From contig NC_079383.1 of the NCBI RefSeq assembly GCF_021018895.1, forward strand, positions 21,565,853 to 21,629,852: a DNA stretch of 64,000 nucleotides. The letters run 5' to 3'. This document shows, piece by piece, positions 9,957 to 51,200 of this stretch; position 1 is the stretch's first letter; every line of letters starts with the position of its first letter. The notes under the pieces are model-generated. The model made no database searches, was not told the DNA's origin, and worked only from the letters and a program-made list of their open reading frames with translations. The DNA comes from Seriola aureovittata. Lineage: Eukaryota > Chordata > Actinopteri > Carangiformes > Carangidae. Both the position numbers and the translations under genes were made by a program.

Positions 9957-12237
9957 CTACAGGTTCTGGTCCAGCCAGTGGATGAAGTTGTTCATGCTCC
10001 TGTGTCCGACGCTGGACATCATCGGCAGGAACGCGAACACCATGCAGCCGTGAAACCCGTCGTCGTAGTGATCACTGGTCACCGTGACGCCGGCGTCCTG
10101 CAGGCGCTTCGCATACATGAGGCCGTCGTCCCTCAGCACGTCGAACTCACACGTCATCACGTACGCTTTCGGCGTCTTACCCAGAACTCCTTGCTCCGCC
10201 AGCAGTGGCGCCGCCCTCACATCCACCAGCGCCGGCACCTCGCCCACAACCCCCGGCGATCCCGTCTCTTTAAGAACCGGCCGGAAGTGTTTCTTGCGCT
10301 CACCTGAGAGCAAAGAGGTCCAGTCCAGTCTGGAGCGGGTGTCGGCGCCGATGGCCGGCTGGTCCAGGGAGCTGTGGTTGTTGGCGAGCAGGAGCGGCTC
10401 CAGGGAGGAGTCGGCGCCCAGGTACTGCAGCCAGAAACGAGCCATGACGGGCCGGTAGAGGATGGGCACGGCCTGGTTCTGCTGGTAGGACGGGGTGTAG
10501 AAGTCGAGGGCCTGCAGCACCGGGTAGATCAACGCCTGGGCCTTGAACCTCGCGCTCAGACTGTCGTCAGAGCTGAGCTGCGGATACAGGAGGGAGGCAC
10601 AAATCAGCTGATGTGTACGGTGGCCCTGAGGGCTCACACACATGCAAACACGTAATCGGAATTAAGGCAAATGATGTTTGTTTGTTTTACTGAGACAGAC
10701 TGGAATCATTCAGTGTGTTACTTCGATAAAGGAAGTGTAGAAACGTGTGTGTTCTGACCTCAGGTGTGTGTGTTCTGACCTCAGGTGTGTGTGTTAGACT
10801 CGTATCTGTCTTCGTGTAAGATGCTGTATGAGATCTGGATATCGTGAGACGTGCGTTTGTTTCGTTTACCTCCTGAGCCACGGCAGCGGCCAGGTTCCCC
10901 CCGGCGCTGTCCCCGGACACACACACCCTCCCCGGATCGATGCTGTAGCGCTCCAAAACCTGAGCGGACAGGAAGGCCCGGGACGCCGCCAGCGCATCGT
11001 GGTACTGGTCTGGGAACACCGCCTCCGGAGCCAGACGGTAACTATAGCAACAAGACAATATTGTCATGCATCATACTGTAAAAGCCCCAGCCCTGGCAGC
11101 AGTGATGTGTTAGCACTGACACTAACGCTGAGACATTTAGTTGATTCATCCATTAGTGAGAATTAATCACCAACAATTCTGATAATTAATTAATCACTTA
11201 AGTAATTAATGAATCCATTCTCTGCTTCCTGCCTCTTCAATCAGAGAGATATCAGCTAACAGCAGCTTCGGTCTGAACTTTCCTTCCTCTAAATGAATGA
11301 GTTTGTTTTAATGTGACAGAACTCACTCTACAGACATCACGACAGCATCCAGATCCTCCGCCATCTTCCGGCAAAGACGGTCATAGGATCGCATTCCTGC
11401 GAAGCAAGTGAGCTCAGTGTGAGTGATACTGACGTTTCACATACAACAATGAAGGTTTTGTTCTTATATTTACTCACGTTCTGATTATTATCAACCCCAG
11501 AACTTTTAAATGTAAGAGTCAGGTTGGTTTAATCTGACCCGGGGTGTCACAGTAAAATATATTCAGCTAAACTCGACTGAAGCCGAAACATTTTTCCTGC
11601 AGAAAACAGAAAAGTCAACGATTCAGTTTTTCAGAGTTTTAAAAACCAGCACTCACGGCCGCTGCCGAGGGCCCACCCTCCACCGTGGAAGTATATGACC
11701 CCTCTCTTCAGCTTCTTCCCGCCCTTTGGCTGGAAGACCCTGGTGGGCACGCCGCCCAGCGCGGAGTCGGTCACGAGCACGGCGGGGCAGGAGCGAGCCT
11801 CGATCACCTCCACCCAGGACACCACCTGGTTCAACAGGTGGACGCGATGGCACACGCCCAGAGCGTGAGCCACGTCACTCTGGAAAAACAAACACACACA
11901 AACACGCCAATTATCACCTGAGCTGAACGGACGCTGTTCTGATTCCTCAAGAAAGACGTTTAAATCAAAACTTTATTGATAGAAAATGTCTTAAGGAGAA
12001 GAGCACAGATGTTTCACCCTCAAACTTGTACTATTTTAATATTTCGCAATTTGAAAGTTAGAGGTGATCTCTCACCTGAAGCGTCTCCCTGTCAGTGTGA
12101 TGATGGAAAAACAACAACAAGGTGGAGAAGAAACAAGAGCTGTAAGCTGAGACTCCGCAGGGCGTGAAAACCTGTCCTATACATTGAGTGTGTGTGAAAT
12201 CTTGTTGCTCTGCATTGGCGCATTAGATTATAAGATT

Positions 12238-12301
<64 letters not shown>

Positions 12302-12619
12302 CTGCCGGTGCAAAGTTTAAGAGGAGCTTAAGTTTAATCTAACATGTTACATACGGCTCTGTCGTAACAGCACAAGGCCGACGCCACATATTAAACAGGT
12401 GCAGGTTAAAGCGCGTTCAGCAGCAGGGTCAAAGGTCATTTCCTTGTTATTCTGACCACCTGAGATCTATGTCATTCTGTTCTATGTGAATCTCTCTCAC
12501 TACACTCTACTCTCATCTCTTAATCTGTTCTATTCTCTTGTGTAATATCTCTGACCCCTCACTACATCCATCTGTATCCTCTGATTTTATCACAGTAAAT
12601 TATAAAAGTGGGCTTTAGT

Positions 12620-12652
<33 letters not shown>

Positions 12653-13959
12653 TTAGTGTAGTATTTAGTTAAGTAAAGAAGAGTACAGTGGGCTATGGTA
12701 TAATACAGTATATTACAGTAAAGTACAGTAGAATATCACGGGCTATACTATAGTATTGTGCAGTGCAGTAAAGTATACATAGTGAGCTATGGTATAGTAG
12801 AGTAAATTATAGTATAGTATAAGTATTAGTATTGTTGAGTAAAGTAGCCTATAGTACACCTAAGTATAGTATAGATAGTGTAATATCTGTAGTTATATAT
12901 AGTTGGCTATAGAACAGCTAAGTATAATGTAGTATAGTATAGTATAGTGTAGTATAGTATATTGTAGTACAGTGGAGTAAAGTTTAGTATAGTATAATAG
13001 AGTAGAGTAGAGTTAAGTATAGTATAGTATGGAATAGTAAAGTATAGTATAGTACAGTATAGTATAGTATAGTATAGTACAGTATAGTATAGTATAGTAT
13101 CGTATAGTATAGTATAGTAAAGTATAGAATAGTATAGTATGGAATAGTAAAGTATAGTATAGTATAGTATGGAATAGAATGGTATAGTGTATAGTATAGA
13201 GTAGTACAGTGGAGTTAAGAAAAGTTTAGTACAGTATAGTAAAGTATAGTATAGTGTAGTATAGTGTATTGTAGTACAGTGGAGTAAAGTTTAGTATAGT
13301 ATAGTATAGTATAGTATGGAATAGTAAAGTATAGTACAGTATACTACAGTATAGTACAGTATAGTACAGTAAAGTATAGTATGGAATAGTAAAGTATAGT
13401 ATAGTATAGTATAGTATAGTATAGTATAGTATAGTATAGTATAGTATAGCATTGTATATTCTCAAATGTGCTACTCTATTTTTCCTGTTTTATTCTACTG
13501 TGTTTTCTACTTAATAACTTCCCTCTCTACTTCATGTTATGCTCTTCTAACACTGTGATACAGTATTACTGTTATTGCCTGTGACCTACAGTTTCATACT
13601 ACTATTATTTACAGAATATGCTGACAGGTTTTTGTAACACACCTTTGTCTCTCCTCTGTTTTCTAACCCTCGGCTCCATCTCCTGAATAAACGGATATTC
13701 TGCTACAGCTCTCAGCTGTAAAGACGCTGTTTCTCTAGAACTTTCTCTGACAGCTCTCTCTGTCTTCCCTCGCATCAACCTGTCCACCTCTGCTCTCCTG
13801 TCTCCCGCATCACTCGGCTCTCACCGCCCGCATGAAGCTCCGGAACAGCGCGTCTAGCAGCATCAGCTTCCACGGCTCGCTCACGCCGCTCGGTAGCGGC
13901 AGGTAGACGTAGTAGGCGGCCGCCGACAGCAGCACGGCTCCGGCCAAACGGAGCCTCAT
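9957..13959 (-). CDS. nceh1: Neutral cholesterol ester hydrolase 1 (AADACL1), five exons
   Basis: A single-pass ER membrane serine hydrolase of the arylacetamide deacetylase (hormone-sensitive lipase-like) family. Family members hydrolyse cholesteryl esters and 2-acetyl monoalkylglycerol ethers. Exons on the minus strand, all with GT/AG junctions and matching phases: 13959-13825, 11879-11657, 11396-11327, 11041-10870 and 10577-9957, giving 1,221 nt or 406 residues; human NCEH1 is about 408. The start is the ATG heading an N-terminal signal-anchor ([20 protein letters not shown]). The oxyanion motif HGGGWAL is in exon 2. The nucleophile motif GDSAGGN is in exon 4. The acid region [12 protein letters not shown] and the catalytic-His region DGFHGC are in exon 5. 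The protein ends WLDQNL, as in the human protein. No break was found. Fish carry more than one nceh1 copy, and I cannot tell which this is. Other AADAC family members fit less well. Confidence 0.95.
12241..12299. repeat. (GT)n microsatellite in nceh1 intron 1
   Basis: Uninterrupted GT repeat of about 59 bp, intronic relative to the minus-strand nceh1 gene. Confidence 0.97.
12600..13460. repeat. Degenerate (TATAG)n pentanucleotide tract in nceh1 intron 1
   Basis: A (GTA)n run at 12615-12650 grades into about 800 bp of AGTAT/TATAG pentamers with scattered substitutions (AGTAC, AGTAA, GGAAT). The most uniform part is 13395-13450. It makes up nearly half of nceh1 intron 1. The Tyr/Leu-rich frames over it are artefacts. 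Confidence 0.9.
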
Positions 13960-16493: not shown

Positions 16494-19400
16494 ATGGGGT
16501 TTCTCTTAAGGTAAGTGTATGGTTTTTTTTTTGTGTTTGGTTTTGTGTTCAACTCTTTATTAAAGCATATAGTGACTAGGATGTCTTCTTTCTCCAGATG
16601 GTTGCTGCTGACCTTGCTAGTGGTAGGAAGACGTCAAGCAAATGGTAAGTTTTTATTTAAGATGTGAAATTAATTGGTTGTATGCATGGATTAAAATGTT
16701 TGCTTAACAGCTTACAGCATTGGATCTGTTGAGAAGCATGGAGGCTCAAATACAAATGAGGTAAGTAGCTACAGCACGCAAATAATTCTGTTACCGGTTT
16801 AAAGCTGAATCACAGGAACCAAATGACTAATCTGTGCCAGGAATCGGATATTTATCAATTTATTCTTATCAGCCACAGCAGCCTCACGTGCTGAGCTACC
16901 AGCAGCCACAGGTTCCCCCACAACCACAGATGCCCCCGCAGCCTGGTTACCCACCCCTGCAGGCCCAAGGTCCCCAGCAGCCTAATCAGCCGCAGGTACC
17001 TCAGCAGCCCGGTTATCCACCCCAGCTGCCTCCACAGGCACCCCAGCAGCCCCAACAGCCTAAGCAGCCACAGGTACCCCAGCAGCCCAGTTACCTGCCC
17101 CAGCAGCCTCCACAACCACAGGTACCCCAGCAGCCCAGTTACCTGCCCCAGCAGCCCAGCTCACCAGCCCAGCAGCCTAAACAACCGCAGGTACCTCAGC
17201 AGCCTGGCTACCCACCCCAGCAGCCTCCACAACCGCAGGTACCTCAGCAGCCCGGCTACCCACCCCAGCAGCCCGGCTACCCACCCCAGCAGCCTAAACA
17301 ACCGCAGGTACCCCAGCAGCCCGGCTACCCACCCCAGCAGCCTAAACAACCGCAGGTACCCCAGCAGCCCGGCTACCCACCCCAGCAGGCTAAACAACCG
17401 CAGGTACCTCAGCAGCCCGGCTACCCACCCCAGCAGCCTAAACAACCGCAGGTACCCCAGCAGCCCGGCTACCCAACCCAGCAGGCTAAACAACCGCAGG
17501 TACCTCAGCAGCCCGGCTACCCACCCCAGCAGCCTCCACAACCGCAGGTACCCCAGCAACCTAAACAACCGCAGGTACCCCAGCAGCCTGGCTACCCACC
17601 CCAGCAGCCTCCACAACTGCAGGTACCCCAGCAGCCTGGCTACCCACCCCAGCAGCCTCCACAACCGCAGGTACCCCAGCAGCCTGGCTACCCACCCCAG
17701 CAGCCTCCACAACCACAGGTACCTCAGCAGCCTGGCTACCCACCCCAGCAGGCTAAACAACCGCAGGTACCCCAGCAGCCCGGCTACCAAACCCAGCAGG
17801 CTAAACAACCGCAGGTACCCCAGCAGGCTAAACAACCGCAGGTACCTCAGCAGCCCGGCTACCCACCCCAGCAGCCTCCACAACCGCAGGTACCCCAGCA
17901 ACCTAAACAACCGCAGGTACCCCAGCAGCCTGGCTACCCACCCCAGCAGCCTCCACAACTGCAGGTACCCCAGCAGCCTGGCTACCCACCCCAGCAGCCT
18001 CCACAACCGCAGGTACCCCAGCAGCCTGGCTACCCACCCCAGCAGCCTCCACAACCGCAGGTACCTCAGCAGCCCGGCTACCCACCCCAGCAGCCCGGCT
18101 ACCCACCCCAGCAGCCTAAACAACCGCAGGTACCCCAGCAGCCCGGCTACCCACCCCAGCAGCCTAAACAACCGCAGGTACCCCAGCAGCCCGGCTACCC
18201 ACCCCAGCAGGCTAAACAACCGCAGGTACCTCAGCAGCCCGGCTACCCACCCCAGCAGCCTAAACAACCGCAGGTACCCCAGCAGCCCGGCTACCCAACC
18301 CAGCAGGCTAAACAACCGCAGGTACCTCAGCAGCCCGGCTACCCACCCCAGCAGCCTCCACAACCGCAGGTACCCCAGCAACCTAAACAACCGCAGGTAC
18401 CCCAGCAGCCTGGCTACCCACCCCAGCAGCCTCCACAACTGCAGGTACCCCAGCAGCCTGGCTACCCACCCCAGCAGCCTCCACAACCGCAGGTACCCCA
18501 GCAGCCTGGCTACCCACCCCAGCAGCCTCCACAACCACAGGTACCTCAGCAGCCTGGCTACCCACCCCAGCAGGCTAAACAACCGCAGGTACCCCAGCAG
18601 CCGGCTACCAAACCCAGCAGGCTAAACAACCGCAGGTACCCCAGCAGGCTAAACAACCGCAGGTACCTCAGCAGCCCGGCTACCCACCCCAGCAGCCTCC
18701 ACAACCGCAGGTACCCCAGCAACCTAAACAACCGCAGGTACCCCAGCAGCCTGGCTACCCACCCCAGCAGCCTCCACAACTGCAGGTACCCCAGCAGCCT
18801 GGCTACCCACCCCAGCAGCCTCCACAACCGCAGGTACCCCAGCAGCCTGGCTACCCACCCCAGCAGCCTCCACAACCGCAGGTACCCCAGCAGCCCGGCT
18901 ACCCACCCCAGCAGCCTAAACAACCGCAGGTACCCCAGCAGCCCGGCTCCCCACCCCAGCAGCCTAAACAACCGCAGGTACCTCAGCAGCCCGGCTACCC
19001 ACCCCAGCAGCCTAAACAACCGCAGGTACCTCAGCAGCCTAATTGGCCACAGCTACCTCAGCAGCCTGGCTACCCGCCCCAGGTTCCCCAGCAGCCCAGT
19101 CGCCCTTCCCAACAACCACAGGTATCTAAGCAACCTGGCTACTTGCCCCAGCAGCCCAGCTACCCAACCAAGCAGCTACGGGTACCTCAGCAGCTCGGCT
19201 ACCCGCCCCGGGTTCCCCATCAGCCTAATCGACCACAGGTACCTCAGCAGCCCGGCTACCCGCCCCGGGTTCCCCATCAGCCTAATCGACCACAGGTACC
19301 TCAGCAGCCTGGCTACCCGCCCCGGGTTCCCCATCAGCCTAATCGACCACAGGTACCTCAGCAGCCCGGCTACCCGCCCCGGGTTCCCCATCAGCCTAAT

Positions 19401-20094
19401 CGACCACAGGTACCGCAGTATTCTGGCTACCTGCCCCAGCAGCCCGGCTACCCACCCAAGCAGCTGCAGGTACCCCAAAAGCTGCACATACCTCAGCAAC
19501 CCAGGTACCTACCTCAGCACCCTAGCTACCTGCCCAAGCAGCCTCAGGTACCTCAGCACCTTAGCTACCAGCCACAGCAGCCCAGCTACCCGCCCAAGCA
19601 ACCCCAGTGGCTATCAGTATCCCAGCAGTCTAAGAATCCGCAGGTACCCCCACAACCACAGGTACTTCAACAGCCTGGCTACCTGCCCAAGCGGCCCCAG
19701 GTGCCCCAGCAGCCTGGCTTCCAGCCTCAGCAGGCCAGCTATCCACCCAAGCAGCCCAGCTATCCACCCATGTGGCCCCAGCAGTCCCAGGCTTCCAGTT
19801 ACCCTCCCAAGCAGTCCCAGGTGCCCCAGCAGCCTGGCTACAGACCCCAACAGCCCAAGCAGCCCCGACTGGCTTTCCACCTGCCTCAGCAGCCTAGCTA
19901 CATACGCAAGATGCCCCACATACAGCGCTCCCTGCCCAATCAGACAAAAGTTCTTAAACATCTCTTTCAAAAACAGCAACAGAGACTGTAGGTGCCCAAG
20001 CAGCTTCAGATCAGTTCCTCATCTCAGCAGTTTGAAGTTTCTGAACAGCAACATCAATGTTTATCCTACTTCTTTCCAAGAAGTTGTTGCCTGA
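16494..20094 (+). CDS. Secreted Pro/Gln-rich tandem-repeat protein, family unknown
   Basis: Coding exons: 16494-16510, 16598-16644, 16711-16760 and a large exon from 16873. The CAG acceptor at 16870-16872 keeps the frame; the nearer CAG at 16838-16840 would not. A 3' UTR exon starts at 20218 after a donor at 20108. Residues 1-22 form a signal peptide ([15 protein letters not shown], then RRQANA), followed by a short linker and about 1,000 residues of repeats such as [16 protein letters not shown], rich in Pro, Gln, Tyr and Lys, with no Cys seen in the repeat frame. One base is missing near 18602 relative to the sister repeat. As written, the frame then shifts and runs to a stop at 20092-20094 (about 1,111 residues). 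The repeat frame itself continues to a stop at 19989-19991. It recalls the Pro/Gln repeats ahead of ZP domains in fish egg-envelope proteins, but no ZP domain is present. A structural matrix role is inference. Confidence 0.75.
17200..18930 (+). repeat. 822-bp higher-order tandem repeat inside the Pro/Gln exon
   Basis: Blocks of 48-bp repeats are themselves duplicated with an offset of 822 bp (274 codons). For example, the string at 17761 recurs at 18583, and that at 17221 recurs at 18043. A sub-block starting at 17521 also recurs at about 17866, 18343 and 18687. The copies are nearly identical, which implies recent unequal crossing-over or conversion. Confidence 0.9.
18595..18610 (+). other. 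One-base deletion (frameshift) in the repeat exon
   Basis: Here the sequence reads CAGCAGCCGGCTACC, where the sister copy about 822 bp upstream (from 17774) reads CAGCAGCCCGGCTACC. Downstream of this point the offset between sister copies becomes 821. The Pro-Gln-Gln-Pro frame therefore continues one base out of register from here to 19991. It could be a real mutation or a consensus error in a C run within a repeat. Confidence 0.85.
19200..19420 (+). repeat. 57-bp tandem repeats, four copies
   Basis: Four nearly perfect copies encoding [19 protein letters not shown] in the repeat frame, starting about 19211, 19268, 19325 and 19382. This is a different unit length (19 codons) from the 16-codon units upstream. 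Confidence 0.88.
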
Positions 20095-36278: not shown

Positions 36279-39200
36279 TTATTTGTTGCGGGGAACCTTC
36301 TCTCCGAGAGGAACCTCCATCAGTTTCTGTCAGGAGAGAAAAAGGCAGTTAAAAGTGACTCAGGTATAATGTTTTACCGTAATTCTTTTTTTAAAATTCT
36401 TAATAACTGATTCTGTTTATGAGGAGCGTAGTACTGAAAACCAGCTCTTCCAGATTCTGTTTGAACATGCAGTTGATGTGACCTGGATAGACTTGCGATG
36501 CAGTGAAGCGTTATAGACTGATGATGTACTGTGTTCAGTCTCTCAGCTCGTTCTCTTTGCAGACAGCTGCATACAACATTTCTGCTTTCTTTTGAAGGCA
36601 CAGAGAAAAGCGACAGAGGAGAAGTTACAAAGCTCCTGGACTTTGTGGTTCGACACCGGACCAGCTGACAGCGAGCGGGAAAGTTCAGCGGCCGGTATCC
36701 TTGTTGCCAATTTGGTAAATCAAACCAATCACCTTACTTTTGTGGGTCACCCCCTTGGTCTAGTCCACACTCACTCCTGTTGAAAAGTCTGCAGCTAAAG
36801 TGGTTCATAATAATTCAAATCAAACTAATGGAAAGACAAAGAAAGCTGCTGAGTTTTAGCCGTTTTATTACCACTTTCTGTTGCTAAATTAATTAGTTAT
36901 GAACAGCTAATGAGTCGTTTACACACATCAGTATACTCATTCGGTCTGATTGATGTGGATATAGCCGAGAGGCTAGGTAAACAGCAGTATCTCACCTTGA
37001 GCAGTCGAGCATGGTAAGCATTGTCATCCTCGTTCTCTCCTTTCTGTGCGTCCACCTCGTATCGCTCACAGGCCCGAGTCAGCTCGTGGGCGTCGTAGAG
37101 CACAGCCGGGTCCAGAGAGTGATCGTTTATCAGACTGACCAGGTATTCTCTGTAGTGCTTCCTGCAGAAACACACACACCTTTGTAAAAGGCTTCATCTG
37201 AAAGAGTATCCTCATAAAAGTGAGGGAAGAGATTTATAGAATATGCTCTGAAAAAGGAGACGTTTTGGATTTTTTATTTTATTTTTTTAATCAGAATCAT
37301 TAAAGCTGCAATAAGCTGGTCTCTAACTGTGTCAGTCAGCTGTTTGCTTCTGAGGTAGTGGACAGTTGGTTTTGCTCTGAAAACGATGCTCAGAGATTAT
37401 AGCTGCATTAATGGAGTTAAAGAGAGAGAGAGAGTTTTCTTTTAGAATAATATTAATTTCTTCATTTTGTTTTTCAACTGCAGAGTCACCCATCCAAACA
37501 TTTTGTGGTGGCAGCGACATTTTCCATCTCCTCCTGGGGAATTCCCAGCTCCTCCCAGCTTGACGTGTCTGAAAGAGCTCCAAGACAAGACGCCCAGGAG
37601 GCGTCCTGACCAAGTGTCTGAATCACCTCAACTGTCTCCTGTCAATGGAGCAGCAGCTCTACTCCTATTATTTATGCCATTCTACTCCTCCTACTATGAC
37701 GTTTTTTTTTTTTACATTTTTATGCCATGCTATACTGTGATGTTTATTTTTTTAAATTTTTATGCCATGCTATACTATGACGTTTTTTTTTTGGACATTT
37801 TTATGCCATGCTATACTATGACGTTTTTTTTTTTTTTACATTTTTAAGCCATGCTATACTATGACGTTTTTTATGATTGTTTTTTTTTTTTTACATTTTT
37901 ATGCCATGCTATACTATGACATTTTTTTTTGACATTATGCCATGCTATACTATGACGTTTTTTTTTGGACATTTTTATGCCCTGCTATACTATGACGTTT
38001 TTTATGCCATGCTATACTATGACGTTTTTTATGATTGTTTTTTTTTTTTTACATTTTTATGCCATGCTATACTATGACATTTTTTTTGACATTATGCCAT
38101 GCATAACGTCTATGACGTTTTTTTTGGACATTTTTATGCCATGCTATACTATGACGTTTTTTTGACATTTTTATGCCATACTATACTATGACGTTTTTTT
38201 TTTATTTTTATGCCATACTATACTATAACGTTTTTTTGACATTTTTATGCCATACTATACTATGACGTTTTTTTTAATTTTTATGCCATACTATACTATG
38301 ACATTTTTTTTGACATTATGCCATGCTATACTATGACGTTTTTTATGATTGTTTTTTTTTTTTTACATTTTTATGCCATGCTATACTATGACGTTTTTTT
38401 AACATTACTATGACGTTTTTTTTTTTTACATTTTTATGCCATGCTATACTATGACGTTTTTTTAACATTACTATGACGTTTTTTTTTTTTACATTTTTAT
38501 GCCATGCTATACTATGACGTTTTTTTGACATTTTTTATGCCATGCTATACTATGACGGTTTTTTTTGACATTATGCCATGCTATACTATGACGGTTTTTT
38601 TTGGACATTTTTATGCCATGCTATATTACGAGGTTATTTTTTCTACATTATTATGCCATGCTATACTATGACGTTTTTTTTGAGATTTTTATGCCATACT
38701 GTACTATGACATTTTTTTTTGACATTATGCCATGCTATACTATGACGTTTTTTTTTGTTTTTTTTTACATTTTTATGCCATGCTATACTATGACGTTTTT
38801 TTGACATTTTTATGCCATACTATACTATGACGTTTTTTTTGACATTATGCCATGCTATACTATGACGTTTTTTATGATTGTTTTTTTTTTTTACATTTTT
38901 ATGCCATGCTATACTATGACGTTTTTTTAACATTACTATGACGTTTTTTTTTTTTTTACATTTTTATGCCATGCTATACTATGACGTTTTTTATGCCATA
39001 CTATACTATGACGTTTTTTTGACATTTTTATGCCATACTATACTATGACGTTTTTTTTAATTTTTATGCCATACTATACTATGACATTTTTTTTGACATT
39101 ATGCCATGCATAACGTCTATGACGTTTTTTTTGGACATTTTTATGCCATGCTATACTATGACGTTTTTTTGACATTTTTATGCCATACTATACTATGACG

Positions 39201-42200
39201 TTTTTTTTTTATTTTTATGCCATACTATACTATAACGTTTTTTTGACATTTTTATGCCATACTATACTATGACGTTTTTTTTTTACATTTTTATGCCATA
39301 CTATACTATGACATTTTTTTTGACATTATGCCATGCTATACTATGACGTTTTTTATGATTGTTTTTTTTTTTTACATTTTTATGCCATGCTATACTATGA
39401 CGTTTTTTTAACATTACTATGACTTTTTTTTTTTTTACATTTTTATGCCATGCTATACTATGACGTTTTTTTGACATTTTTTATGCCATGCTATACTATG
39501 ACGTTTTTTTTTTTTACATTTTTAAGCCATGCTATACTATGACGTTTTTTATGATTGTTTTTTTTTTTTACATTTTTATGCCATGCTATACTATGACATT
39601 TTTTTTACATTTTTTATGCCATGCTATGACGTTTTTTTTTGGACATTTTTATGTCATGCTATATTACGAGGTTATTTTTTTTTACATTTTTATGCCATGC
39701 TATATTACGAGGTTATTTTTTCTACATTATTATGCGATGCTATACTATGACGTTTTTTTTTTACATTTTTATGCCATACTATACTATGACTTTTTTTTTT
39801 TGACATTATTATGCCATACTATACTATGACATTTTTTTTGACATTATGCCATGCTATACTATGACGTTTTTATGATTGTTTTTTTTTGGACATTTTTATG
39901 CCATACTATACTATGACGTTTTTTTTTGTTTTTTTTTACATTTTTATGCCATGCTATATAATGAGGTTTTTTTTTTTTGACATTATGCCATGCTATACTA
40001 TGACATTTATTTTTTCTACATTATTATGCCATGCTATACTATGACGTTTTTTTTTATTTTTGACATTTTTATGCCATGCTATACTATGACGTTTTTTTGG
40101 ACATTATTATGCCGTACTATACTATGACGGTTTTTTTTGGACATTTTTATGCCATGCTATATTACGAGGTTATTTTTTTTTACATTTTTATGCCATGCTA
40201 TATTACGAGGTTATTTTTTCTACATTATTATGCCATGCTATACTATGACGTTTTTTTGAGATTTTTATGCCATACTGTACTATGACATTTTTTTTTTTAG
40301 ATTTTTATGCCATACTGTACTATGACATTTTTTTTTGACATTATGCCATGCTATACTATGACGTTTTTTTTTGGTTTTTTTTACATTTTTATGCCATGCT
40401 ATATAATGAGTTTTTTTCTTTTGACATTATGCCATGCTATACTATGACGTTTTTTTTTGGACATTTTTATTCCATACTATACTATGATGTTTTTTTGACA
40501 TTATGCCATGCTATACTATGACGTTTTTTTTTTTTACATTTTTAAGCCATGCTATACTATGACATTTTTTTGACATTTTTATGCCATGCTATGACGTTTT
40601 TTTTTTTTTTTACATTTTTATGCCATACTATATTATGACATTTTTTGACATTTTTATCCCATAATATACTGACTTTTTTTTTTTTTTTTTTTTTTTACAT
40701 TTTTAAGCCATGCTATATTATTAGATTTTTTATGCCATGCTATACTATGACGTTTCTTATGCCATGCTATACTATGACGTTTTTTTTTTTTACATTTTTA
40801 AGCCATGCTATACTATGACGTTTTTTATGATTGTTTTTTTTTTTTTACATTTTTATGCCATGCTATACTATGACGTTTTTTTTGACATTATGCCATGCTA
40901 TACTATGACATTTTTTTGACATTTTTTATGCCATGCTATGACGTTTTTTTTTGGACATTTTTATGTCATGCTATATTACGAGGTTATTTTTTTTTACATT
41001 TTTATGCCATGCTATACTATGACTTTTTTTTTTTGACATTATTATGCCATGCTATACTATGACATTTTTTTTTTGACATTATTATGCCATGCTATACTAT
41101 GACATTTTTTTTTGACATTATGCCATGCTATACTATGACATTTTTTTTGACATTATGCCATGCTATACTATGACGTTTTTTTGGACATTCTATGGAATAC
41201 CTGAAGTCTGCTTAAACTGTCTGTATTTAATGTGTTTTTATGCAATTTTGATTGTTGTTTTAATGTCTTATCACTGCATATCCTCTTGTAAATGCTGCTA
41301 TATGTATTATATTGATGTAAGTGGTTTGTTAATATGTTCAAAAGAATAAAACAAGTCTGTGTGTGTGTTATTATGCCATGCTATACTATGACGTTTTTTT
41401 TTTACATTTTTATGCCATGCTATACTATGACGTTTTTTTTTTAGATTTTTATGCCATACTGTACTATGACATTTTTTTTTTAGATTTTTTATGCCATGCT
41501 ATACTGTGACGTTTTTTTGACATTTTTTTTGACATTATACTATGATGTTTTTTTTGACATTATGCCATGCTATACTATGACGTTTTTTTTTTTTACATTT
41601 TTAAGCCATGCTATACTATGACGTTTTTTATGATTGTTTTTTTTTTTAACATTTTTATGCCATGCTATACTATGACATTTTTTTGACATTTTTATGCCAT
41701 GCTATGACGTTTTTTTGGACATTTTTTATGTCATGCTATATTACGAGGTTATTTTTTTTTACATTTTTATGCCATGCTATATTACGAGGTTATTTTTTCT
41801 ACATTATTATGCGATGCTATACTATGACGTTTTTTTTTTACATTTTTATGCCATACTATACTATGACTTTTTTTTTTTGACATTATTATGCCATGCTATA
41901 CTATGACATTTTTTTTGACATTATGCCATGCTATACTATGACGTTTTTATGATTGTTTTTTTTTTGACATTATTATGCCATGCTATACTATGACATTTTT
42001 TTTGACATTATGCCATGCTATACTATGACGTTTTTATGATTGTTTTTTTTTGGACATTTTTATGCCATACTATACTATGACGTTTTTTTTTGGTTTTTTT
42101 TACATTTTTATGCCATGCTATATAATGAGGTTTTTTTTTTTTGACATTATGCCATGCTATACTATGACATTTATTTTTTCTACATTATTATGCCATGCTA

Positions 42201-45200
42201 TACTATGACGTTTTTTTTTATTTTTGACATTTTTATGCCATGCTATACTATGACGTTTTTTTGGACATTATTATGCCGTACTATACTATGACATTTTTTT
42301 GACGTTTTTATGCCATACTATATTATGACATTTTTTGACATTTTTATCCCATAATATACTGACTTTTTTTTTTTTTTTTTTTTACATTTTTAAGCCATGC
42401 TATATTATTAGATTTTTTATGCCATGCTATACTATGACGTTTCTTATGCCATGCTATACTATGACGTTTTTTTTTTTTTACATTTTTATGCCATGCTATA
42501 CTATGACTTTTTTTTTTTACATTATTATGCCATGCTATACTATGACGTTTTTTTGGACATTCTATGGAATACCTGTAGTCTGCTTAAACTGTCTGTATTT
42601 AATGTGTTTTTATGCAATTTTGATTGTTGATTTAATGTCTTATCACTGCATATCCTCTTGTAAATGCTGCTATATGTATTATATTGATGTAAGTGGTTTG
42701 TTAATAAGTTCAAAAGAATAAAACAAGTCTGTGTGTGTTATTATGCCATGCTATACTATGAAGTTTTTTTTTTGACATTTTTACTGTGACGTTTTTTGAC
42801 GTTTTTATACCATACTATGACTTTTTTTTTTTACATTATGCCATACTATACTATGACATTTTTATGCCATGCTATACTGTGACGTTTTTTGACATTTTAA
42901 TGTCATACTATACTATGACATTTTTTTTGACATTATGCCATGCTATACTATGACGTTTTTCTTTTTTACATTATTATGCCATGCTATACTATGACGTTTT
43001 TTGGGGGGTTTTACTTTTACATTTTTATGCCATACTATACTATGACTTTTTTTATGCCATACTATACTATGACGTTTTTTGACATTTTTATGCCATACTA
43101 TACTATGACGTTTTTTTTTTAATTTTTTATGCCATGCTATACTATGACTTTTTTTTTTTTTTACATTATTATGCCATGCTATACTATGATGTTTTTTTTA
43201 AAAATTTTATGCCTTACTATACTATGTTTTTTTCTTTTTTTTTATGCCATACTATACTATGACATTTTTTTTTGACATTATGCCATGCTATACTATGACG
43301 TTTTTTTTTGGACATTTTTATGCCATGCTATATTACGAGGTTATTTTTTTTTACATTTTTATGCCATGCTATTTTACGAGGTTATTTTTTCTACATTATT
43401 ATGCCATGCTATACTATGACGTTTTTTAGAGATTTTTATGCCATACTGTACTATGACATTTTTTTTTGAGATTTTTATGCCATACTGTACTATGACATTT
43501 TTTTTTGACATTATGCCATGCTATACTATGACGTTTTTTTTTGTTTTTTTTTTACATTTTTATGCCATGCTATATAATGAGGTTTTTTCTTTTGACATTA
43601 TGCCATGCTATACTATGACGTTTTTTTTTGGACATTTTTATGCCATACTATACTATGACATTTATTTTTTCTATATTATTATGCCATGCTATACTATGAC
43701 GTTTTTTATGATTGTTTTTTTTTTTGACATTATGCCATGCTATACTATGACGTTTTTTTTTTTTGACATTGTGCCATGCTATACTATGACGTTTTTTTTT
43801 TACATTTTTATGCCATGCTATACTATGACGTTTTTTTTTTACATTTTTATGCCATGCTATACTCTGACGTTTTTTTGACATTTTTATGCCATACTATACT
43901 ATTACTTTTTTTTTTTGACATTTTTATGCCATACTATACTATGACGTTTTTTTTTTACATTATGCCATGCTATAATATGATGTTTTTTTTTTAATTTTTA
44001 TGCCATGCTAGACTATGACGTTTTTTTTTTTTTACATTTTTAAGCCATACTATACTATGACTTTTTTTGGGGGGTTTTATTTTTACATTTTTATGCCATG
44101 CTATACTATGACGTTTTTTTTTTACATTTTTATGCCTACCTATAGTATTACGTTTTTCTGCATTTTTATGCCTAACTATACTATGACGTTTTTTGGCATT
44201 TTTATAACATACTATACTATGACACTTTTATGCCTTATTATACTATGACATTTTTTGAGAATGTTATGCCATACTGTTCTATGACTTTTTTTTTTACATT
44301 TTTATGCCATACTATAATATGACATTTTTTTTTTACATTATTATGCTATGCTATACTATGACGTTTTTTGAAATTTTTATGCCATGCTATACTATGACGT
44401 TTTTTTTTTTTTTTTTTACATTTTTATGCCATGCTATACTATGACGTTTTTTTTTACATTTTTATGCCATGCTATACTATGACGTTTTTTGACATTTTTA
44501 TGCCATACTATACTATGACATTTTTTTTTACATTATTATGCTATGCTATACTATGACGTTTTTTGACATTTTTATGCCATGCTATACCATGACGTTTTTT
44601 TTCACATTTTTATGCCATGCTATACTATGACGTTTTTTGGGGGGTTTTATTTTTACATTTTTATGCCATGCTATACTATGACGTTTTTTTTTTACATTAT
44701 TATGCTATGCTATACTATGACGTTTTTTGACATTTTTATGCCATGCTATACTATGACGTTTTTTTTTTTTTTTTACATTTTTATGCCATGCTATACTATG
44801 ATGTTTTTTTTTACATTTTTATGCCATGCTATACTAAGACGTTTTTTTTGACATTTTTATGCCATGCTATACTATGACGTTTTTTTGACATTTTTATGCC
44901 ATACTATACTATGACATTTTTTTTTTACATTATTATGCTATGCTATACTATGACGTTTTTTGACATTTTTATGCCATACTATACTATGAGATTTTTTTTT
45001 GACATTATGCCATGCTATAACATGACGTTTTTTGGGGGGTTTTATTTTTACATTTTTATGCCATGCTATACTATGACGTTTTTTTTTACATTTTTATGCC
45101 ATGCTATACTATGACTTTTTTTTTGACGTTTTTATGACATGCTATACTATGACTTTTTTTTTTGACATTATGCCATACTATACTATGACATTTTTATGCC

Positions 45201-48200
45201 ATGCTATACTGTGACGTTTTTTGACATTTTAATGTCATACTATACTATGACATTTTTTTTGACATTATGCCATGCTATACTATGACGTTTTTCTTTTTTA
45301 CATTATTATGCCATGCTATACTATGACGTTTTTTGGGGGGTTTTACTTTTACATTTTTATGCCATACTATACTATGACTTTTTTTATGCCATACTATACT
45401 ATGACGTTTTTTTTTTAATTTTTTATGCCATGCTATACTATGACATCTTTTTTTTTTTGACATTATTATGCCATGCTATACTATGATGTTTTTTTAAAAA
45501 ATTTTATGCCTTACTATACTATGTTTTTTTTTTTTTTTTATGCCATACTATACTATGACATTTTTTTTTGACATTATGCCATGCTATACTATGACGTTTT
45601 TTTTTTTGGACATTTTTATGCCATGCTATATTACGAGGTTATTTTTTTTTACATTTTTATGCCATGCTATTTTACGAGGTTATTTTTTCTACATTATTAT
45701 GCCATGCTATACTATGACGTTTTTTAGAGATTTTTATGCCATACTGTACTATGACATTTTTTTTTGAGATTTTTATGCCATACTGTACTATGACATTTCT
45801 TTTTGACATTATGCCATGCTATACTATGACGTTTTTTTTTGTTTTTTTTTTACATTTTTATGCCATGCTATATAATGAGGTTTTTTCTTTTGACATTATG
45901 CCATGCTATACTATGACGTTTTTTTTTGGACATTTTTATGCCATACTATACTATGACATTTATTTTTTCTATATTATTATGCCATGCTATACTATGACGT
46001 TTTTTATGATTGTTTTTTTTTTTGACATTATGCCATGCTATACTATGACGTTTTTTTTTTTTTGACATTATGCCATGCTATACTATGACGTTTTTTTTTT
46101 ACATTTTTATGCCATGCTATACTATGACGTTTTTTTTTTTTACATTTTTATGCCATGCTATACTCTGACGTTTTTTTGACATTTTTATGCCATACTATAC
46201 TATTACTTTTTTTTTTTGACATTTTTATGCCATACTATACTATGACGTTTTTTTTTTACATTATGCCATGCTATAATATGATGGTTTTTTTTTAATTTTT
46301 ATGCCATGCTAGACTATGACGTTTTTTTTTTTTACATTTTTAAGCCATACTATACTATGACTTTTTTGGGGGGGTTTTATTTTTACATTTTTATGCCATG
46401 CTATACTATGACGTTTTTTTTTACATTTTTATGCCTACCTATAGTATTACGTTTTTCTGCATTTTTATGCCTAACTATACTATGACGTTTTTTGGCATTT
46501 TTATAACATACTATACTATGACACTTTTATGCCTTATTATACTATGACATTTTTTGAGAATGTTATGCGATACTGTTCTATGACTTTTTTTTTTACATTT
46601 TTATGCCATACTATAATATGACATTTTTTTTTTACATTATTATGCTATGCTATACTATGACGTTTTTTGAAATTTTTATGCCATGCTATACTATGACGTT
46701 TTTTTTTTTTTTTTTACATTTTTATGCCATGCTATACTATGACGTTTTTTTTTACATTTTTATGCCATGCTATACTATGACGTTTTTTTGACATTTTTAT
46801 GCCATACTATACTATGACATTTTTTTTTTACATTATTATGCTATGCTATACTATGACGTTTTTTGACATTTTTATGCCATGCTATACCATGACGTTTTTT
46901 TTCACATTTTTATGCCATGCTATACTATGACGTTTTTTGGGGGGTTTTATTTTTACATTTTTATGCCATGCTATACTATGACGTTTTTTTTTTACATTAT
47001 TATGCTATGCTATACTATGACGTTTTTTGAAATTTTTATGCCATGCTATACTATGACGTTTTTTTTTTTTTTTTTTACATTTTTATGCCATGCTATACTA
47101 TGTTTTTTTTTACATTTTTATGCCATGCTATACTAAGACGTTTTTTTTGACATTTTTAATGCCATGCTATACTATGACGTTTTTTTGACATTTTTATGCC
47201 ATACTATACTATGACATTTTTTTTTTACATTATTATGCTATGCTATACTATGACGTTTTTTGACATTTTTATGCCATACTATACTATGAGATTTTTTTTT
47301 GACATTATGCCATGCTATAACATGACGTTTTTTTGGGGGGTTTTATTTTTACATTTTTATGCCATGCTATACTATGACGTTTTTTTTTTTACATTATTAT
47401 GCTATGCTATACTATGACGTTTTTTGAAATTTTTATGCCATGCTATACTATGACGTTTTTTTTTTTTTTTTTTACATTTTTATGCCATGCTATACTATGT
47501 TTTTTTTTACATTTTTATGCCATGCTATACTAAGACGTTTTTTTTGACATTTTTAATGCCATGCTATACTATGACGTTTTTTTGACATTTTTATGCCATA
47601 CTATACTATGACATTTTTTTTTTACATTATTATGCTATGCTATACTATGACGTTTTTTGACATTTTTATGCCATACTATACTATGAGATTTTTTTTTGAC
47701 ATTATGCCATGCTATAACATGACGTTTTTTGGGGGGTTTTATTTTTACATTTTTATGCCATGCTATACTATGACGTTTTTTTTTACATTTTTATGCCATG
47801 CTATACCATGACGTTTTTTTTCACATTTTTATGCCATGCTATACTATGACGTTTTTCGGGGGGTTTTATTTTTACATTTTTATGCCATGCTATACTATGA
47901 CTTTTTTTTTTGACATTATGCCATGCTATACTATGACTTTTTTTTTGACTTTTTTATGCCATGCTATACTATGACGTTTTTTTGGACGTTTTTATGCCAT
48001 GCTATACTATGACGTTTTTTTTGACGTTTTTATGACATGCTATACTATGACTTTTTTTTTTGACATTATGCCATGCTATACTATGACGTTTTTTTTTTTA
48101 ATTTTTATGCCATGCTATACTATGACGTTTTTTTTTTACATTTTTATGCCATGCTATACTATGACGTTTTTTTTTTACATTTTTATGCCATACTATACTA

Positions 48201-51200
48201 TGACGTTTTTTGGGGGGTTTTATTTTTACATTTTTATGCCATGCTATACTATGACTTTTTTTTGACGTTTTTATGACATGCTATACTATGACTTTTTTTT
48301 TTTACATTATGCCATGCTATACTATGACTTTTTTTTTGACGTTTTTATGCCATGCTATACTATGACGTTTTTTTGGACGTTTTTATGACATGTTATACTA
48401 TGACTTTTTTTTTTGACATTATGCCATGCTATACTATGACGTTTTTTTGGACGTTTTTATGCCATGCTATACTATGACGTTTTTTTGACGTTTTTTTTGA
48501 CGTTTTTATGACATGTTATACTATGACTTTTTTTTTTGACATTATGCCATGCTATACTATGACGTTTTTTTTGACGTTTTTATGACATGCTATACTATGA
48601 CTTTTTTTTTTGACATTATGCCATGCTATACTATGACTTTTTTTTTGACGTTTTTATGCCATGCTATACTATGACGTTTTTTTGGACGTTTTTATGACAT
48701 GTTATACGATGACTTTTTTTTTTGACATTATGCCATGACGTTTTTTTGGACGTTTTTATGCCATGCTATACTATGACGTTTTTTTTGACGTTTTTATGAC
48801 ATGTTATACTATGACTTTTTTTTTTGACATTATGCCATGCTATACTATGACGTTTTTTTTGACGTTTTTATGACATGCTATACTATGACTTTTTTTTTTG
48901 ACATTATGCCATGCTATACTATGACGTTTTTTTGGACGTTTTTATGCCATGCTATACTATGATGTTTTTTGACATTTTAAGCCATACTACACAATGACAT
49001 TTTCATGACATACTATACTATGTCCTTTTTTGAAATTTTTATGCCTGACTATGCTATTATTTTTTGTCATTTTATGCCTTATTATACTAAGTTGTTTTTT
49101 GGACATTTTTATGACACACTATACTAAGTTGTTTATTGACATTTTATGCCATACTATAACATGACGTTTTTTTGACATTTTTATGCCTTACTATACTATG
49201 ACATTTCTTTCACATACTATAGTATGACATTTTATTTACATACTTTACTATGGCATTTTTGTGACATACTATACTAAACCATTTTAGCATCAGACAGACA
49301 CACCTGTACAGACTAGATGGCAAACATAGTGGAGCATTTATCAGCTACCAGTTGGACCTGAGACCTGAGCACACTGTACTGAAGCATAGTGTTGAGTTAT
49401 ATTAATGTTTTGATAGACTTAATCAAATACACAATTTTTCATCTATCTACTTGAAAAGCTTGTGCTAAATTCCACTATGTTAAAAGAGACAAAACAGACC
49501 ATCTATAGACCATCGCTGTTGTGTCTGTCAATCTCAGGCAGATCACAGACACAGAAGCAGTAGTGTCAGACACTCACTCGCAGAGCCCAGCTTGTCCCGG
49601 CTGTGTTTGAATACCACACGGTGAATCAGTCTGCTGACCTCCTTCATCTTTCTGCTCCATTACACCACAAGAGTCTGGTTCAGAGAGGAGAGAACAAAGT
49701 CAATTACTGATTTAAGAAAATATTTTTGCATCAACAGCTGAATTAAAACAGATTGTATATTAATGGTTACAATTCAGGAAAACAATAAAGGTCTCATACG
49801 CAAGTGATACCATGGCATCACATCACTGAATATGGACACTACAGACTATGTGAAAAAGCGATGGATAAAAGAACTGGACATTGAAATAACTGAAGACATG
49901 TGGCTGCATGCTTGGGAAATACAGTCATCTTCCACCAACTCCCAGACCTGGAGAGACTTCCGATAGAAAAAACTTGATTTGTTTTTTTATCACTTCCAAA
50001 CAGAAGTCTAAACAAACTAGCACTTGACTACGCAGCTGGAGGGAATGTGCAGTAATTATGGTTGATCATGCTCACGTCTTCTGGACTTCTCCCTCTATGC
50101 AGTCTTTCCTGGGTTTTAGTGTCAGTATAACACTCACATTCCTCTGACTTGGACAGACTTTTCATAACTACTGTAATATGTAATGTGCAATATTTCATTT
50201 TAAATTAGGCAAATTTGCCTTGGTATTTTGATCATCTCATGACCTCATGTCTGCTCTTTTCTTTTGTCTGTTTGATATTTGTTTGTTTCTTGCTTGCTGT
50301 TCTCATAACGTGGAAAACGTCAATTCATTAAACTAATAAAAAGTTAAAGGACAAAGATTGCAACTTTAAAAATGTAGTTTAAAAAGTTTAATCACATTTT
50401 TGTTTGAATTCCAGATTTTCCAGGATATGTTTGAACCTAGGGGAAATTTATCAAATGAAATATTTTCTGCACATGATGAAAGATTTATACAAGGAAAAAG
50501 ATGATTTCAGCTGATGAATGAAAAGCTGTTTTACCACTTTGAGTTCCATTAGAAGGGTCTGTGTTGAACTCGACACCGCTCCTCTGGGGGGGAGAAAAGG
50601 AAAGTTAAGGCCTCAGTTAGAACCAAACTGATGATTCTACAATTAAATGAAACAAAATTAGGTTTGTCCACTCTAGAAATCCTAGGAGATCTAAAATTTC
50701 AGTTGTCAAGTAAGAGACAGTTTCCAGCAGGAGCTTACATCTAAAGGAAATGTAATTTGATGATATCTTACAACTGTTATCTGACATATAAACAGGGTTT
50801 TTGAAGCAGGACATAACACACGGGGAAGTTTCAAAAACTGGGCATGTCGGCCAAGGCATAAGTGAAAACAACATTTTTATATTAGTTACTATGGTATGTC
50901 ATCGAGTAACCCTGAAATGTTGTTCTACAGAAAGAAAGTCAATCAACAATTTTTCCAACAAAAATTCCAAATGTTTTCTGATTCCAGCTACTCAGATTAT
51001 GAGGTTTAGCTGCTTTTCTTTGTACTTTTAAAGACCTTTTTAATACCACACAAAATGAAATTTAATACCCATTTCACTGGCTTAAGCATGAAACATATCA
51101 ATGAAAACCAGTAGGGATGGTAAGGCCTAGAATTACTCACCAAGTGCATAAATATACTGACAATTTAGTCTGTGCTAATTAATGAAATATTATTGGTTTT

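Follow-up and report, generated by a model that had tools for sequence, protein, structure and literature searches.

Minisatellites and VNTRs occur in introns of vertebrate genes, and satellite arrays that carry captured pieces of transposable elements are likewise a known general kind. The array described here, in the gene rnf31 (HOIP) of Seriola aureovittata, resembles intronic minisatellites and VNTRs in being a long array inside an intron, in leaving the splice sites intact, and in its likely variable length, but it belongs to a dispersed satellite family and is not a locus-born repeat. Like the transposable element-capturing arrays, it holds a foreign repeat fragment within the satellite, and it differs from them generally in that the LINE-like 3′ end is here kept at several dispersed loci with a common junction.

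Lca_38 is a tandem repeat of the Asian seabass, Lates calcarifer, for which an excerpt of the source article prints a 38-nt FISH oligonucleotide and reports a pericentromeric location by FISH (PMC4833346). As far as that excerpt goes, Lca_38 and the rnf31 repeat have the same build, with A-tracts around a TCATAGTATAGTATGGC core, and both form tandem arrays; the rnf31 repeat is intronic and dispersed, whereas Lca_38 is reported to be pericentromeric. The rnf31 array is also marked by the motif GCCATGC, unlike Lca_38. A search of literature text for 12 short strings of the repeat gave matches only in PMC4833346, which was also the only article using the name Lca_38 that looked relevant by its title. 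The available sections of PMC6211105 do not mention Lca_38, and those of PMC4110674 name other seabass repeats. Among titles on teleost minisatellites and satellites, nothing useful turned up, and a literature search on RNF31 introns (one listing, judged by title) returned no paper on an array in an rnf31 intron.

The rnf31 locus and its intronic array

The window, a stretch of 64,000 nucleotides, corresponds to positions 21565853 to 21629852 of contig C20 in a 647-Mb, 31-contig assembly, and its features around the array are listed in Table 1.

Table 1. Features of the rnf31 penultimate intron and its surroundings (window coordinates)
Feature	Position	Strand	Remarks
Last rnf31 coding stretch	36282..36326	-	15 residues; part of the PDB-matched translation
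rnf31 exon following the penultimate intron	36996..37161	-	166 nt
Penultimate intron of rnf31 (HOIP)	37162..49577	-	12,416 bp; GT-AG borders; flanking exons match RNF31 LDD
Left flank within the intron	37445..37671		presumably an old interspersed-repeat fragment
Lca_38-like satellite array	37672..49285	+ (T-rich strand)	about 270 to 290 monomers, mostly 35 to 41 bp
Insert copy a, captured 3′ fragment of LINE-like repeat	41175..41369	+	shorter than copies elsewhere
Insert copy b, same LINE-like 3′ fragment	42547..42739	+	region 95% identical to that of copy a (6-313 of the 321-base query)
2.29-kb tandem block duplication, first copy	43085..45335	+	96.6% identity to 45381-47659
2.29-kb tandem block duplication, second copy	45381..47659	+	aligned with 43085-45335
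rnf31 exon preceding the penultimate intron	49578..49674	-	97 nt; last 2 nt belong to a split codon

Both exons that border the penultimate intron are preceded by AG and followed by GT. The joined translation of these exons and the last coding stretch was compared with the PDB, where six of six matches were named RNF31, the best being 9iic_C (E = 1.4e-27); LDD sequence thus lies on both sides of the intron, which identifies the gene as rnf31/HOIP. The window contains 15 further gaps between coding pieces of rnf31, which are upper bounds on the length of single introns and measure 115 to 1,885 bp. The penultimate intron is therefore an outlier; about 800 bp (0.8 kb) of it remain once the array is subtracted.

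The array occupies 11.6 kb, or 93.5% of the intron. Its borders at 37672 and 49285 were placed by eye and lie close to those given by motif coverage (37671-49272). TRF reported a row at 37692-48729 with a period of 39 and 278.6 copies and another at 37705-49003 with a period of 38 and 292.1 copies, with more rows reaching 49276 and periods ranging from 37 to 39. All 273 plus-strand matches of a relaxed core motif in the window fall inside 37600-49300, with a median spacing of 38 bp and a mean of 42 bp. The core is nearly palindromic, and its minus-strand form has 54 matches in the window, 48 within the array and 6 at 11380-13303. Thymine makes up 51% of the plus strand of the array.

These measurements bear out the initial annotation on most points: that a 12.4-kb intron (12,416 bp as measured) separates the exons at 49674-49578 and 37161-36996, that the remaining complete rnf31 introns are far shorter (15 gaps, 115 to 1,885 bp), that the splice sites, phases, and flanking exons are intact (GT-AG borders and RNF31 matches in the PDB), and that the last 70 codons (55 plus 15) lie downstream and belong to the LDD (best E = 1.4e-27). 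They likewise agree with it that a tandem array fills the intron (TRF and relaxed-motif matches, 93.5%), that the copies number in the hundreds (278.6 or 292.1 by TRF; 273 motif matches), and that the array is A-rich, which is true of the gene strand. Its description of nearly the whole intron as one array of monomers of about 40 bp stands for the array itself, with its median spacing of 38, but it contains two non-satellite stretches, one at about 41175-41369 and the other at about 42547-42739.

Many monomers of the array retain a TGACG motif with its CpG, TATGACG accounting for 145 of 232 occurrences of TATGAC, which is possibly a sign of recent homogenization or low methylation. Elsewhere in the window, a long reading frame of Pro-Gln-rich tandem units lies on the plus strand at 16834-20094 and presumably resembles fish egg-envelope proteins. 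Part of the way along, the Pro-Gln repeat passes out of this frame, and it is carried on in another by a PQQP-rich frame at 19143-19991; this change of frame may reflect an indel or a broken copy. An array of TATAG pentamers of about 0.7 kb occupies 12744-13458.

A dispersed satellite family related to Lca_38

Exact matches to the core motif number 18,252 across the 647-Mb genome (10,277 forward and 7,975 reverse), 139 of them in the window, and a reversed-motif control had none genome-wide. Since the core is this abundant and the control gave 0, the repeat is a dispersed satellite family, present in numerous copies at numerous loci within one genome, and not a single-locus minisatellite. Taking listed and fetched places together, the satellite is present on at least 15 of the 31 contigs: among the matches listed (of 395), it occurs on C1, C4, C5, C7, C11, C12, C13, C15, C16, C20, C21, and C22, and at fetched loci on C2, C9, and C19 its monomers adjoin the LINE-like module described below. 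The matches on C11 extend over 20 kb among those listed, and given this span, contiguous or not, the family may include a larger array than the one in rnf31. In ten stretches, the commonest unit was 36 bp in seven, 36 and 25 bp tied in one, and 25 or 26 bp in two. A search of viral contigs with a 40-base satellite pattern gave no matches.

Three copies of the printed Lca_38 oligonucleotide aligned to the gene strand of the array with a local score of 131, whereas 200 shuffles of the query reached at most 55 and 50 shuffles of the array at most 51, so that the likeness of the monomer to Lca_38 exceeds chance; the rest of the window scored 35 and the other strand of the array scored 28. The head-to-tail unit of about 38 bp (median spacing, 38; TRF, 37 to 39) is also of the Lca_38 type. 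The printed oligonucleotide itself has no match in the genome at up to two mismatches (0 forward, 0 reverse), and the array is therefore regarded as a relative of Lca_38 rather than Lca_38 itself, probably one that differs by species or subfamily. On C20, which is 24.0 Mb long, the array is found at 21.6 Mb, and the remaining arrays are spread over many contig positions. The missing oligonucleotide match and, given the pericentromeric location reported for Lca_38, these positions are points against the reading favored below. The expectation that a satellite of such a kind was special to HOIP is not supported, the repeat being dispersed in the genome and related to Lca_38 of the Asian seabass.

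Local growth of the array

A 29-base variant taken from the rnf31 array has 10 matches genome-wide, all 10 of which are in this array. Similarly, GCCATGCTATAC occurs 144 times in the rnf31 array, whereas nine other stretches (1.2 to 7.7 kb) have 0 to 5 occurrences apiece. The two copies of the 2.29-kb block are adjacent and 96.6% identical; their alignment of 2,291 columns contains 25 mismatches and opens 24 gaps. Because of this private variant, the enrichment of GCCATGCTATAC, and the adjacent block duplication, we infer that the array grew and was homogenized within the intron.

LINE-like inserts and their chimeric junction

The two non-satellite stretches within the array belong to a repeat that we take to be LINE-like. 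The idea that they are unrelated interruptions was rejected, since their regions are 95% alike and both match a dispersed repeat. A fuller copy of this module, taken from locus L052, had 45 genome matches when used as a query. At the first five places fetched, which came from a query that also contained satellite letters, the module was in or beside satellite in five of five, with satellite on one side only at L055. Because that initial query also held satellite letters, 16 further places were fetched (stretches of 0.65 to 2.6 kb), and 14 of these were without a monomer, while L068 had 1 and L069 had 42; seven other listed places, on C4, C9 (three), C11, C12, and C17, lie outside the fetched set. 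The module is thus dispersed outside the satellite (14 of 16 stretches), where its sequence has the appearance of a LINE-like 3′ end. At L052, L053, L054, and L069, on C9 and C20, a single satellite stretch holds several LINE-like 3′ fragments, oriented as nearly all the neighboring monomers are.

The 17-mer immediately upstream of the LINE-like part lies at a distance of 0 to 3 from GGACATGCTATGGAATA in 10 of 13 satellite-associated copies, these 13 being the copies that retain the upstream end, and at 4 to 6 in the other three. The two window copies are each at a distance of 1; the others are at 0 and 1 (L052), 0, 2, and 1 (L053), 0 (L055), 3 and 2 (L069), 4 (L054c), 5 (L068), and 6 (L051), the values for L052a, L053a, and L054c being readings by eye from the alignment. 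At 12 satellite-free loci with a detected module start, the distance is 8 to 13, and at L063 and L064 the module homology begins slightly later. The weaker junctions of L051, L054c, and L068 count against the main reading, as does the one-sided satellite at L055. As the chimeric junction is common to satellite-borne copies on C2, C9, C19, and C20, it suggests that the LINE-like end was captured into the satellite once and was later present on all four contigs.

The left flank of the rnf31 array presumably represents an old interspersed-repeat fragment, and among the fetched loci it matches copies of its own locus only. In a comparison of 11 array flanks, L011, L052, and L055 carry parts of one common repeat, and L011 is connected with L002 by a match of 20 nt; the window's two flanks match none of those compared. 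A single carrier element at the array borders was rejected on this small sample, in which no common border was found.

Alternative explanations

Tandem arrays are often misassembled, and a 2.29-kb duplication at 96.6% identity could itself be an assembly error, so that the array might be misplaced or its length inflated. The window, however, is without N, the array edges run into non-satellite intron and intact exons, the 29-base variant is present in this array alone, and the two block copies differ by 25 mismatches and 24 gaps, which makes an artifact very unlikely. The private variant and the local duplications would also fit an independent birth, in which the array was made by local slippage and resembles other arrays through convergence, but this is extremely unlikely for a repeat whose core motif is that of 18,252 genome-wide matches and whose chimeric LINE junction recurs at satellite loci on C2, C9, and C19 and at other places on C20. 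A regulatory role, in which the array tunes rnf31 through transcription delay, intronic polyadenylation, or RNA structure, draws on the gene-strand hexamers of the array, 36 in all (21 AATAAA and 15 ATTAAA) compared with 2 and 0 on the other strand, and on a 601-nt sense piece whose fold was stronger than those of all 20 shuffled versions (z = −9.3). The hexamers could cause early polyadenylation, so that the array may not be silent, but such hexamers arise readily in A-rich sequence, and the fold score is raised by tandem near-palindromes, which would tend to produce a strong one anyway. The same satellite family is present at many other places. A tuning element is highly improbable; some effect of the array on rnf31 expression is possible. 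By a crude rule, the gene strand of the array contains no 3′-splice-site-like decoys and the other strand contains one.

LINE machinery would spread the satellite if transcripts ending in the captured LINE-like 3′ end were reverse transcribed into new sites, and several features accord with this: the fragments have the orientation of nearly all surrounding monomers (window, L051 to L054, and L069), LINE-like copies finish with AATAAA and a GT-rich stretch after it, the fragment at L055 sits at the satellite edge, and satellite-free copies are found at 14 fetched loci. In the window, L051 to L054, and L069, however, monomers lie on both sides of the fragment or between copies, so that the fragment is not the array end; the monomers at L055 are of mixed orientation (1 forward and 4 reverse), the fetched C1 arrays have no module listed, and the flanks share no common border. 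Spread by this route is accordingly judged quite unlikely. A related proposal is that of a composite selfish repeat, in which the captured LINE-like 3′ end, with its polyadenylation-like site, gave the satellite a way to new places, the rnf31 intron being one colonized site that expanded to 11.6 kb; we consider it unlikely.

Origin and implications of the rnf31 array

We favor, with a probability of about 0.85, the reading in which a dispersed Lca_38-like satellite, of which the array is a single locus, seeded the intron, grew there, and is removed by splicing. A composite seed of monomers and the captured LINE-like 3′ fragment may have reached the intron from another array, as the common chimeric junction suggests. 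Replication slippage and unequal exchange, including the 2.3-kb block duplication, would then have enlarged it in place, and the array would have become a local subfamily, of which the private variant and the duplication are observed. Being wholly intronic, with intact splice sites and, by the crude rule, no 3′-splice-like decoys on the gene strand, it would persist and is probably transcribed and removed. The array is most likely neutral or selfish satellite DNA, and a function for rnf31 is neither required nor demonstrated. The Lca_38-like family would appear to belong to percomorph fish, and the rnf31 intron adds a new locus, ordinary in kind, to a type of dispersed satellite already known in fish.

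A relative of a satellite reported as pericentromeric thus sits in an intron of an NF-κB pathway gene. Because the array contains a private variant and a block duplication, its length likely varies between individuals, and the locus offers a way to ask whether long intronic satellites alter which isoforms are made at HOIP's catalytic end. If the composite selfish repeat were real, the last LDD exons would be expressed only when dozens of polyadenylation-type hexamers had been crossed. Of the features of the rnf31 array, the captured LINE-like end is the most interesting, and the common LINE junction provides a marker for tracing the movement of the satellite.
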